26,520 nt of DNA from a virus, in IMG/VR virus record IMGVR_UViG_3300022198_005060, positions 1 to 26,520 of that record. One strand, given 5' to 3'. A model generated the notes under the pieces. It was not told the DNA's origin. It saw only the letters and a program-made list of their open reading frames with translations, and did no database searches. Positions 7,541-11,257 of this stretch are shown here, in pieces. The translations under genes and the position numbers were made by a program. Numbering within the stretch: the first letter of the stretch is position 1; every line of letters starts with the position of its first letter.

Positions 7541-8308
7541 ATGGAAAAGATCGACCAGTCACTAGAATCGCTCGTTGTCGAACTTGACACGTTGACGCCG
7601 CTAGAGAACAATCCGCGCCGTGGCAACGTCGAGGCGATCATGGCCTCGTACCGCGAGTTTGGGCAGATGAAGCCGATTGTCATCAAGTCGAACGGCGATG
7701 GGACATCAACAGTTATATCTGGTAACCATCAAGTCGAGGCTGCTCGCCGTTTGGGGTGGACAAAAATTGCGGCGGTTCCGATGGATGCCACCAATGAAAA
7801 AGCGGTCGCTTTCGCTTTGGCTGATAACAGGGTTTCGGAACTTGGCCACAGTGACACAGCAATGGTGTACGACCTGCTTGAAACTGTGTCAGCCCAATAT
7901 GTCGAACTTCTGGACGGTCTCGGCTGGGATGAGTTTGAGATGGCGAGCCTTGAAGAGGCGACGTATCTTTCCTCGGACGGTTCTTCGCCGGGGGTTATCA
8001 TGCCTTCGATCACTGTTCCGGATCCCGTTCAACTGCGTGTCGAGATGCCGACGGATGAGGGTGGCGAAGCAAAAATTGTTGCCGGTGACGACGTTGACCA
8101 TGTTCAGGTCGCGATTCAGGGCAGCACGGTGGCGGCTCCCGGCTCTGCGCCTCAAGCCGTCGTTCAGTACACGCTCGTGTTCGATAACCCAGACCAGCAG
8201 AAGCGTTGGTATGACTTTGTCCGGTGGCTGAGGAACGATCCCGGCTACGACGGCGACACAACAGCAGAAAAGATTATGTCGTTTATTGACGCTCATTCCG
8301 AGGTCTGA
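7541..8308 (+). CDS. ParB/sulfiredoxin-fold domain protein with unknown C-terminal domain
   Basis: 255 residues. N-terminal ParB/Srx-type domain (about 10-110): LTPLENNPRRG (18-28), GQMKPIVIKS (41-50), the box VISGNHQVEAARRLGW (58-73), then an ADNRVSELG segment (94-102) typical of phage ParB-like proteins that often neighbour DNA methyltransferases. The middle (about 110-195) is acidic and poorly conserved in appearance. The C-terminal ~50 residues (YTLVFDNPDQQKRWYDFVRWL...) look like a separate small domain, compatible with a protein-protein or RNA/DNA contact, unassigned. ParB-fold proteins can bind DNA, hydrolyse NTP or nick DNA; the exact activity here is unknown. ATG 7541 follows the previous stop by 15 bases with only a weak Shine-Dalgarno. 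Confidence 0.8.
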   Translation: MEKIDQSLESLVVELDTLTPLENNPRRGNVEAIMASYREFGQMKPIVIKSNGDGTSTVISGNHQVEAARRLGWTKIAAVPMDATNEKAVAFALADNRVSELGHSDTAMVYDLLETVSAQYVELLDGLGWDEFEMASLEEATYLSSDGSSPGVIMPSITVPDPVQLRVEMPTDEGGEAKIVAGDDVDHVQVAIQGSTVAAPGSAPQAVVQYTLVFDNPDQQKRWYDFVRWLRNDPGYDGDTTAEKIMSFIDAHSEV

Positions 8309-8309
8309 A

Positions 8310-8978
8310 GTGATTCATAAATATGGATTTGTCCGGTTGGATGACTGCATGGCCGACGATTTGTCGGTCGTAAATGCGGCCCGCGTTTCGTTTGGCGACA
8401 GGCGAGAGAAAATGAACGAGGCTGACCGTGGCCTTATCGGTTTTCTGATGCGCGAGAGACATGGGACACCTTTCGAGCACAACTCCTTTCGGTTTCATGT
8501 GAAGTGCCCGATTTTTGTGGCGCGGGAATGGTTCCGTCACAGGATTGGGTCGTTCAACGAGATGTCTGGCCGATACACCGAAATTGAAAATCATGGCTAT
8601 GTGCCCGAGGGGGACTATTGCCGCGCGCAGGTTGGGAAGCCGGGGGCTTACACCTTTACACCGCTTGATTCAGATCTGGCAGATGAGGTGAGCGCAGTTA
8701 TCGACGTTCAAGTTCGGCATGCCTTTGGTACGTACAACTATCTACTGCGTCGTGGTGTGGCCAAGGAGGTTGCGCGAGTTGTCCTTCCCGTTGGGACGTT
8801 CACCGAGTTTTATTGGACGGTCAATGCCCGCGCCCTGATGAATTTCCTATCGCTACGAACCGATGACACGGCACAGCGTGAAATCCGTGATTATGCCGCC
8901 GAGGTAGAACGAATCTTCTCCATCAAAATGCCGGTGACGTTTGATTTTTGGGATAAGGGCGGTAGGGTTTGCCCATGA
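8310..8978 (+). CDS. thyX: Flavin-dependent thymidylate synthase ThyX
   Basis: 222 residues from GTG 8310, with GAGG 6 bases upstream. ThyX makes dTMP from dUMP using methylene-tetrahydrofolate, FAD and NADPH, supplying thymidine for phage DNA synthesis. The defining motif RHR-(7)-S is intact: R76-H77-R78 ... S86 in FRHRIGSFNEMSGRY. The C-terminal ARALMNFLSLRTDDTAQREIRDYA segment matches the substrate-binding helix region of the family. The length is slightly short but within the normal range. The start was chosen over an upstream TTG (8286) that lies inside the ParB-like gene. It is the only clear nucleotide-biosynthesis gene in the window and is surrounded by ParB-like and PP-loop genes. 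Confidence 0.95.
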   Translation: MIHKYGFVRLDDCMADDLSVVNAARVSFGDRREKMNEADRGLIGFLMRERHGTPFEHNSFRFHVKCPIFVAREWFRHRIGSFNEMSGRYTEIENHGYVPEGDYCRAQVGKPGAYTFTPLDSDLADEVSAVIDVQVRHAFGTYNYLLRRGVAKEVARVVLPVGTFTEFYWTVNARALMNFLSLRTDDTAQREIRDYAAEVERIFSIKMPVTFDFWDKGGRVCP

Positions 8979-9571
8979 GCAAACCGATCTCACACGGAAC
9001 GCACGCTGGATACAGCAGGGGATGCCGATGCGAAGGTTGCGTACAGGCGCACCGTGTTTACAACCGAGATCGGAAGCGTGAGTTCAGTCGATTCAAGCAA
9101 GGCATCGGACCCGCGCCAGAGTCACGATTCGTTGAGCCCGACACCTCGCGCGCGCATCTTGAATTTCTCCAGCGGCGTGGGGTCAGCATCAATGCTGTCT
9201 CGGAAAAGTCTGGGATCTCTGAGTTCACCCTCAAGAAAATCCGAAGTGGACGATCCACGAAGGTGGCCAAAACGACAGAAGCCGCAATCCTCTCAGTTGG
9301 CGCATCGGACTTGGGGCCGCGTCAACTCGTTTCGTCTAAATATTCGGAACAGATCCTCAACGCCGTGAGGGACGCTGGTGTAACAATTGATCAAATCCAC
9401 CGGCTCCTCGGATACGGCAATCATTACTGGCCTCTTATTAGAGGTAAGTGGATCCGCGTTGAAAATCAAGATCGTTGGGAAAAGTTGTACTTTGATGTGT
9501 TCCGGCATCCAGCGCCCTTTGAAAAGTCGAAGGTGACAAAGATGGCGAGCGATGGGAAGGCCAAGAAGTGA
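8975..9571 (+). CDS. Zinc-motif and helix-turn-helix protein, probable DNA-binding regulator
   Basis: 198 residues from ATG 8975 (ATGA overlap with thyX). The N-terminus, HGTHAGYSRGCRCEGC with following H26, has C17, C19, C22 and nearby His residues that could hold one zinc; I associate this HGT..GY..GCRC..C motif with actinobacteria and their phages. A helix-turn-helix is likely at about residues 68-95 (RRGVSINAVSEKSGISEFTL then KKIRSGRS). A second, similar-looking stretch at about 134-160 (AGVTIDQIHRLLGYGNHYWP) may be another one. The C-terminus is Lys-rich. A role as phage transcription regulator is inferred from fold only. Its stop overlaps the GTG of the PP-loop gene. Confidence 0.75.
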   Translation: MSKPISHGTHAGYSRGCRCEGCVQAHRVYNRDRKREFSRFKQGIGPAPESRFVEPDTSRAHLEFLQRRGVSINAVSEKSGISEFTLKKIRSGRSTKVAKTTEAAILSVGASDLGPRQLVSSKYSEQILNAVRDAGVTIDQIHRLLGYGNHYWPLIRGKWIRVENQDRWEKLYFDVFRHPAPFEKSKVTKMASDGKAKK

Positions 9572-10716
9572 CACGCCAACGGATGTTCTTGGATATCAGC
9601 GTATTAGAGGCTGCTCGCCAGAGGATCCGTCACGTCTATGACACGTTCGACACGGTGTGCGTCCAGTTCTCGGGCGGTAAAGATTCCACGGCGGTCTTGT
9701 ATCTCGCGAAAGAGGTACATGAGGAGCGTGGGCTGGGTCCGGTAAAGGTTATTTTCCGAGACGAGGAGATGGTTTCGCCTCTCGTTTTGGATTACGTCAA
9801 CATGGTCAAAGACTTCGACTGGGTTGATATGGAGTGGTATTGCCTGCCTTATGGTGCCGAAGTTTGGGTGCTTGGTAGGCGTCAGTCTGTGATCTTGTGG
9901 GGTGAGCAACGTCGCAAGGAAGGCCGCTTGGTTCGGGATTTTCCTGAAGGCGCGATCACTGGTTATCACTTCGGTGTTGACCACTCACAGGCTCTTCCGG
10001 AGTCTGTTGACTATTACACGATGCAGGGCAAGAAGGGTTCAACGGCATTTATTACCGGTGTTCGAGCCGCAGAGTCGATGGTCCGCTACCGGTCATGCGT
10101 CCAGAAACTGCACGAAAACTACATTGTCCGACCATACCGAATGAAGGCGGGAATCCCCCTCAAGTTTGCCAAGGTCATCTATGACTGGCAGACCGATGAC
10201 GTACTCAAATTTATCAGCGAGGAGCACAACGCCCCTTACTGTGAATACTATGATCTTGCGGCGCTGACGGGTTCCAATACTCGTGTAGGCATTCCGCTTC
10301 ACTCTGTTGCGATCCGCAGAATTGGTGACCTGATCGCTACGGAGCCACAGTTCTATGATCGGCTGTTTGAATGCTTCCCGTACATTGATGCTCAGCGTCG
10401 CTGGTGGCCCGACTATGACATCGAGGCGGTCATCGAGCGATATGCGGAACAGGGTTGGGATGGTGTCAAAGAAGTCATCGACACTTTTATGATCGGCCCA
10501 ACGAAGAAAAGTCGAGCGAAGTCGTTTACTGCGGATTTCCGTCGCAAGCATGCGATCGATCCGTATTCGTATCCGATCAACTGGCTGATTAGGAATCTTC
10601 TTCTGAACGAATTGACCGTTGCGGCGGCCGCTCCGGTCGGGCCAAAAACGAGGGCCGATACCCTTCGCAAGAAGGCGCTCGCAAAACTTGCTGAGGAGCA
10701 AATCAATGGAAATTGA
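9568..10716 (+). CDS. PAPS-reductase-family PP-loop protein, IbrA-like
   Basis: 382 residues from GTG 9568 (GTGA overlap). ATP-pyrophosphatase PP-loop SGGKDS (35-40), GVRAAES (164-170) and DWQTDDVLKFISEEHNAPYCEYYDL (206-230) place it in the PAPS reductase/sulfurtransferase superfamily. The ECGLH-type motif with the catalytic cysteine of true PAPS reductases is not present, so a role in sulfate assimilation is unlikely; ATP-dependent adenylation of another substrate is more plausible (inference). It is longer than classical PAPS reductases (about 240 residues), like the IbrA group. The next gene, overlapping by 11 bases, is ParB-like, matching the known IbrA/IbrB pairing. The true biochemical function of that pair in phages is not established to my knowledge. 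Confidence 0.85.
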   Translation: MTRQRMFLDISVLEAARQRIRHVYDTFDTVCVQFSGGKDSTAVLYLAKEVHEERGLGPVKVIFRDEEMVSPLVLDYVNMVKDFDWVDMEWYCLPYGAEVWVLGRRQSVILWGEQRRKEGRLVRDFPEGAITGYHFGVDHSQALPESVDYYTMQGKKGSTAFITGVRAAESMVRYRSCVQKLHENYIVRPYRMKAGIPLKFAKVIYDWQTDDVLKFISEEHNAPYCEYYDLAALTGSNTRVGIPLHSVAIRRIGDLIATEPQFYDRLFECFPYIDAQRRWWPDYDIEAVIERYAEQGWDGVKEVIDTFMIGPTKKSRAKSFTADFRRKHAIDPYSYPINWLIRNLLLNELTVAAAAPVGPKTRADTLRKKALAKLAEEQINGN

Positions 10717-11257
10717 TCTGGTAGCCACTGAAAATTTACATGTCCCTGACTGGAACGCAACATATATTCTTCGACCAGATTTGCTGGTGTTGGCAGAGTC
10801 GTTGGCGACGGATGGGATTTTGTCTCCGCTCGTTGTTCAGCGTTCGTCGTCGAATGTGATTGACGGATCACAGCGCTTACGCCTTATTGTCGGCAACAGG
10901 CATTTGGCAGAGATGTTCCCTGTCGTCCCCGTCATTTGGAAGGACGTTTCCGACTCTGACGCTATGGCGATGCATGTTCAGATTAACCGCGGGCGAGGAA
11001 CCATTGTCGCCAAGTCGCTTTCGGCGATTGTTCGGGCACTCAAGCGAAGCCGAGCGTTTTCGGTAGAAGATTTTGACCGGCGCTTCTGCATGAGGGGTGA
11101 CGAGTTGGAACTCATGCTGGATGGAACCATCCTCAAACACCGTGACGTAAAAAATCATCGATATTCCCGTGCGTGGGTTCCCGTCGAGGCACCCGCAGGA
11201 ACCGTCGAAGCGGCAGGCACCCGCATCACAGAGGAACCGCCAAACGCAGACCGATAA
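10706..11257 (+). CDS. ParB-like protein, IbrB-like partner of the PP-loop protein
   Basis: 183 residues from ATG 10706, with GAGGAG a few bases upstream inside the preceding gene. The ParB-type box is visible: LAESLATDGILSPLVVQR (29-46), VIDGSQRLRLI (51-61), VPVIWKD (74-80), and MHVQINRGRG (89-98), where IbrB-type proteins keep an N.GR-like turn. The middle (about 100-150) is basic and helical, suggesting DNA contact. The last ~25 residues are Pro/Thr/Glu-rich and probably disordered. The 11-base overlap with the PP-loop gene suggests the two products are made in step and act together. It is clearly different in sequence from the other ParB-like protein at 7541. Confidence 0.78.
   Translation: MEIDLVATENLHVPDWNATYILRPDLLVLAESLATDGILSPLVVQRSSSNVIDGSQRLRLIVGNRHLAEMFPVVPVIWKDVSDSDAMAMHVQINRGRGTIVAKSLSAIVRALKRSRAFSVEDFDRRFCMRGDELELMLDGTILKHRDVKNHRYSRAWVPVEAPAGTVEAAGTRITEEPPNADR

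Follow-up and report, generated by a model that had tools for sequence, protein, structure and literature searches.

A near-obligate PP-loop/ParB gene pair of the IbrA/IbrB superfamily in a contractile-tailed phage, with ATP pyrophosphatase residues in place of those of a PAPS reductase

What does a phage gene encode when automatic annotation names its product a PAPS reductase (cysH) and its reading frame runs into that of a ParB-fold protein? The IbrA-type family is annotated as PAPS reductase in many records, though it is without reductase residues, and 167 phage cysH genes were counted as sulfate-assimilation genes in one freshwater study (PMC10914622). The pair of genes considered here lies in a virus record of 26.5 kb (26,520 nucleotides; "the window" denotes this whole stretch), which by gene content belongs to a contractile-tailed phage. 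The left side of the window carries genes for terminase, portal, a Rad52-like annealing protein, a Cas4-like exonuclease and RuvC, and the right side carries head–tail connector, tail sheath and baseplate genes, so that the pair is flanked by recombination genes on one side and by head–tail genes on the other. The portal gene (329–2317) is on the minus strand; the terminase and following genes are on the opposite strand.

Table 1. Features of the PP-loop/ParB locus, with positions in the window and the evidence for each.
Feature	Position	Strand	Evidence or remark
Upstream accessory ParB-like protein, 255 aa, PHROG 723 type	7541..8308	+	ParB_N 5e-7, PHROG 723 2.6e-36
ThyX	8286-8978		Gene confirmed
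IbrA/YbdN-type PP-loop ATP-pyrophosphatase-like protein, 382 aa, GTG start	9568..10716	+	Pfam PAPS_reduct 8.5e-9, PHROG 2302 2.2e-71
PP-loop S-G-G-K-D-S codons, residues 35-40	9670..9687	+	S35, G37, K38, D39 invariant, 53 homologues
G-V-R-A-A-E-S codons, residues 164-170	10057..10077	+	G164, R166, E169 invariant
D-W-Q-T-D-D codons, residues 206-211	10183..10200	+	D206, W207, D211 invariant
IbrB/YbdM-type ParB-fold protein, 183 aa, ATG start	10706..11257	+	PHROG 2159 5e-23; profile relation to YbdM
D-G-S-Q-R codons, IbrB residues 53-57, predicted nucleotide-pocket motif	10862..10876	+	His to Gln; most other clades DGFHR
N-R-G-R-G codons, IbrB residues 94-98, second ParB motif	10985..10999	+	Following His absent; elsewhere NRARGxH

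A first-pass annotation of the window had assigned the PP-loop protein to the PAPS reductase superfamily, and its domain and PHROG matches (Table 1) agree; the three motifs it had singled out are all present, and the two open reading frames do overlap by the 11 bases it had noted (10706–10716). It had further likened the pair to IbrA/IbrB, which is borne out by profile matches to the E. coli proteins YbdN (annotated as a PAPS-reductase-family protein) and YbdM (annotated as IbrB-like). Profiles built from phage proteins recognise both, YbdN by the PP-loop profile at 1.5e-94 and YbdM by the IbrB profile at 3.9e-58, and the window PP-loop protein is 26% identical to YbdN over 261 aa (3.5e-18, blastp). 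Like the window genes, ybdN and ybdM are adjacent, overlapping and in the same order, here on the chromosome, and their products share the invariant residues. The IbrA–IbrB proteins of E. coli and prophages likewise form a PP-loop and ParB pair with the order and motifs of the window, although identity between the window clade and the IbrA-like YbdN is no more than about 26% in the PP-loop domain. The Pfam family DUF3440 matches 11 of 53 homologues, marking YbdN (2.2e-32) and the Gaia-type proteins, but the window PP-loop protein gives no match to it even at E values up to 10, and is therefore placed in a divergent clade of the superfamily and not as a DUF3440 member. On sequence grounds, then, the window pair is a divergent clade of the IbrA/IbrB superfamily. 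It differs from E. coli YbdN–YbdM in this lack of a DUF3440 match, in the loss of the IbrB motif histidines described below, and in having an extra upstream ParB.

Across 53 diverse homologues, 18 positions of the PP-loop protein are invariant and common to all groups, and none of these is a cysteine. Most fall in the PP-loop, D-x-E, GxRxxES and DW..D motifs; beside those listed in Table 1 they include D65, E67, R123 and R173. The CG[LI]H motif, which represents the ECGLH tail of PAPS reductases, occurs in 0 of 368 homologues and is missing from the window protein, as the first reading had held. The window protein does contain cysteines. The commonest in the family is C92 (in W-x-C-L-P), kept in 61–100% of members depending on the group, but it was rejected as a family-wide catalytic cysteine because it is Ala or Gln in Kovu, 031MP004, P11VFA, 1H, Hendrix and E. 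coli YbdN; retained as it is in most homologues, C92 could have a role. C225 (in YCxxYD) was rejected as a catalytic cysteine as well, since only the window side of the family has it and locus L106 has Ala in its place. Judged by its motifs, the PP-loop protein keeps the residues to be expected in an ATP pyrophosphatase, and the redox residues of a PAPS reductase are all missing.

The AF2 model of this protein (pLDDT 89) matches, over approximately residues 6–255, the PAPS domain of human FAD synthase (Z 16.8), APS reductase (15.4) and CysD (14.9). APS and PAPS reductases together score from 15.4 to 13.7, nearly as high as the top match, and because the values for FAD synthase, the reductases and CysD are so close, fold alone cannot tell adenylylation and reduction apart. 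The sequence itself favours adenylylation. FAD synthase and the CysD adenylyltransferases, closest by Z together with APS reductase, have an intact PP-loop and DW..D like the window protein (human FAD synthase having the DW..D equivalent), and FAD synthase also has YC..YD; the window protein nonetheless belongs to neither as a sequence family. E. coli CysD, an adenylyltransferase subunit, keeps S-x-GKDS just as the window protein keeps SGGKDS.

The partner protein carries the ParB N-terminal fold with its D-G-x-x-R and N-R-x-[RK]-G motifs, and its predicted layout is an N-terminal NTP-binding ParB domain followed by helix-turn-helix (HTH)-like helices. For its AF2 model (pLDDT 89), Z is about 14 against the nucleotide-binding domain in ParB and Noc proteins, including CTP- and CDP-bound ParB, and 12.9 against KorB over 133 residues, a stretch that takes in the HTH-like helices after the ParB fold. 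D53, G54, R57, N94, R95 and E133 are among the invariant residues, and G98 is nearly so. The histidines of DGFHR and NRARGxH are typical of most clades examined, a statement about their distribution and not about their essentiality; in the window protein the two motifs read DGSQR and NRGRGTI, and both histidines are missing. The window clade mostly has DGSQR (or similar) with NRGRGxx, so that the two were lost together, and the nucleotide pocket of IbrB in this clade has therefore probably diverged. By a recent survey, ParB folds differ in whether they bind CTP, ATP or GTP, and mobile elements are enriched for them (PMC12704722). Mycobacteriophage Phlyer, Arthrobacter phage Kovu, Bacillus phage 031MP004 and Rhizobium phage P11VFA share the ParB–PP-loop–ParB arrangement of the window at 33–38% identity; unlike the window protein, their IbrB proteins retain DGFHR or DGYHR and NRAKGxH-type motifs. 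In the Gaia-type clade (L087:4817-5716, L091:4811-5741), IbrB carries the annotation of an ectoine synthase/ParB multidomain protein, with a cupin-like domain fused or adjoining.

How constant is the association of the two genes? Relatives were gathered from viral contigs (with four different seed members), annotated phages and bacterial genomes; many of these loci are close relatives and the counts do not represent independent events, while the seeds span several phage clades. An IbrB-type ParB gene lies no more than 3 kb from the PP-loop gene at 179 of 179 viral loci with full flanks (no less than 2.5 kb before and 2 kb after the PP-loop gene) and at 60 of 61 bacterial full-flank loci. Of 356 cases, 350 have it downstream of the PP-loop gene, and its longest possible open reading frame overlaps the PP-loop frame in 82%. 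Titles of the bacterial records that hold the pair span proteobacteria, clostridia and bacilli, Bacteroidales and Streptomyces. Whether in phages, on plasmids or in bacteria, the two genes form a near-obligate module. Two outcomes that would have spoken against the original reading—ordinary placement among PAPS reductases, and loss of the association in related phages—were looked for, and neither occurred. A mirror-tree comparison within the window clade gave correlations of 0.79–0.82 between the PP-loop protein and IbrB versus 0.67–0.77 between the PP-loop protein and phage housekeeping genes, a difference too small to prove contact between the two proteins. YbdN-type genes were also found on 723 plasmid records, mostly from Klebsiella, Escherichia and Shigella, and many of the plasmid entries among the matches listed have a ParB-family gene annotated alongside.

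The wider block is less uniform. The first-pass annotation had grouped the pair with the upstream ParB-like gene and ThyX, and only the former part of this grouping stood: the second ParB is upstream at 118 of 179 viral full-flank loci, including 52 of 52 in the window clade, and is absent from the Gaia-type clade and nearly absent at bacterial loci. ThyX lies near the PP-loop gene at only 10 of 86 scanned loci (the window being counted twice, as itself and as its copy L001), and was rejected as a module member; it is an occasional neighbour, outside the two-gene unit. The upstream ParB and its homologues have a conserved C-terminal stretch (~YxLVFDxxxQxxWxxFxxWLK) past the ParB domain, in place of which the proteins of FP_Taranis and PJN03 end in a Cys-x2-Cys zinc-ribbon-like motif. 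Between ThyX and the PP-loop gene, the window encodes a 200-aa protein (8969–9571) of PHROG 1590 (unknown function) with a weak HTH_26 match, which recurs in about 16 related loci. Elsewhere in the family, an SNF2-type helicase gene is found upstream of the IbrA-type gene at 13 of 67 bacterial loci (e.g., L290, L291, L312, L313 and L332) and in Lactobacillus phage AQ113, mostly with its end no more than a few bases away, in an apparent helicase–IbrA–IbrB operon. Methyltransferase genes adjoin the cassette in Bacillus phage 031MP004 and in M. abscessus prophi79-1. In Microbacterium phage Hendrix (L086:3375-4667), the PP-loop homologue is at the genome end, beside genes for a glucosyltransferase, a methyltransferase and an N-acyltransferase. 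Several phages have the cassette beside a terminase or portal gene.

The reading that we tentatively prefer is one in which an ATP pyrophosphatase adenylylates its substrate under the control of an NTP-dependent IbrB switch, most likely for a sulfur-free change to phage DNA or to a protein bound on DNA. The PP-loop enzyme would cleave ATP to AMP and PPi, activating the substrate by adenylylation, and IbrB, acting as a switch or clamp under nucleotide control, would place the enzyme on DNA. The resulting change, specific to a site or region, could protect the genome from host restriction or mark it for late events. That DNA is the target is the least certain step. It is suggested by the predicted HTH of IbrB and by the precedents of DndB with DndC and of DpdB, as well as by the SNF2-type helicases upstream at bacterial loci, the methyltransferases at two phage loci and the proximity of packaging genes. 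ParB-fold partners accompany PP-loop or TGT enzymes in known DNA modification systems, as DndB does DndC and DpdB does DpdA (PMC10853773, PMC12839542). No report of a modified base in cassette-carrying phages was found in a literature search, nor of a biochemical activity for any IbrA/IbrB or YbdN/YbdM protein.

Sulfur enters two of the other readings. That the PP-loop gene is an auxiliary metabolic gene, a cysH that boosts sulfate assimilation by the host, is what its automatic annotation implies and what published counts of phage cysH as sulfur-cycling genes assume (PMC10914622), and the window protein does have the fold and superfamily of PAPS and APS reductases in common. E. coli CysH, however, has a degenerate PP-loop (SSFGIQAA) and a C-terminal ECGLH at 238, whereas the window protein has an intact ATP-type loop and no such cysteine; at 244 aa, CysH is also 138 residues shorter, close to the roughly 140 first estimated, and the near-obligate link is to a ParB-fold gene and not to cys genes. 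The window gene is thus probably not a sulfate-reduction gene, and a role in host sulfate assimilation is very improbable. Only three loci came back from a scan for viral genes resembling CysH, each with its match at a contig end, and the scan has little bearing on bona fide viral CysH. A reduced DndC-like enzyme for phosphorothioation or base thiolation, drawing on host IscS, seems unlikely, if less so. DndC does work with a ParB-superfamily protein, DndB, much as in the window pair, and there are weak local matches to DndC and to BrxP of BREX type 4; the similarity is confined to the PP-loop segment (residues 12–82), and neither the DndC cysteines nor any family-wide Cys pair or triad is seen. 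The full-length DndC profile reaches 25.7 bits against a curated cut-off of 290.4, over residues 18–78 only, and DndD (TIGR03185) and a class V aminotransferase/cysteine desulfurase (PF00266) were found in 0 of 17 related phage records, five of them possibly incomplete contigs; identification of the window protein as a DndC was rejected on these results. A search for DndE gave no match, but neither did its control, so that this search carries no weight. Host IscS can stand in for the cysteine desulfurase of the Dnd/Ssp system. With the cysteines missing and DndD and the desulfurase not found, a sulfur-containing base is unlikely as the product.

The main rival to a DNA modification is transcription control, in which IbrB would be an NTP-gated DNA-binding activator or antirepressor and IbrA would modify or charge it, turning on phage late genes or prophage genes. 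Annotation text names IbrA and IbrB as co-activators of prophage gene expression, a role that reportedly originates in the original eib work, and such a phenotype fits plain transcription control. The predicted HTH of IbrB and its likeness to Noc, KorB and ParB fit as well, as does the frequent position of the cassette just before terminase or head genes. In E. coli, the ybdNM operon is repressed by CitR and YbdM stands among the predicted transcription factors (PMC9068703); YbdM has elsewhere been called completely uncharacterized, its deletion having small fitness effects and its overexpression a growth cost (PMC8764527). Yet there is no obvious need in such a scheme for an ATP pyrophosphatase that keeps all its catalytic residues in hundreds of homologues, and the position of the cassette varies among phages; in those of Lactobacillus and Streptococcus it follows the lysis genes. 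We regard transcription control as a serious contender, but an unlikely one. Rather unlikely, too, is counter-defence through nucleotide signalling, by which the PP-loop enzyme would make or destroy a nucleotide-type molecule, the ParB-fold proteins would sense it, and a host defence would be neutralised. Both proteins have nucleotide-binding folds, ParB folds bind several nucleotides and abound in mobile elements, the pair occurs on phages, plasmids and chromosomes alike, and there is a weak profile match (E 0.02) to a chain named Cap9; against this, no defence model matched IbrB, and the PP-loop enzyme matched only DndC and BrxP, locally in the PP-loop.

An adenylylating PP-loop enzyme with an IbrB switch is the mechanism that we carry forward, as a tentative one. 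In its most general form—a speculative extension, and a doubtful one as yet—phages, plasmids and bacteria would share an unrecognised cysteine-free, ATP-dependent DNA-modifying machine, composed of an IbrA-type adenylylating enzyme and an IbrB-type switch, of which many phage "cysH" sulfur-cycling genes would be the catalytic subunit. Such pairs are common in phages, on plasmids and in bacterial genomes, E. coli ybdNM among them; the near-obligate linkage, the intact ATP-type loop and the lack of reductase residues make their function directly testable in a laboratory strain, K-12. The counts of phage cysH from which viral sulfur cycling has been argued may take in genes whose products do not reduce PAPS.
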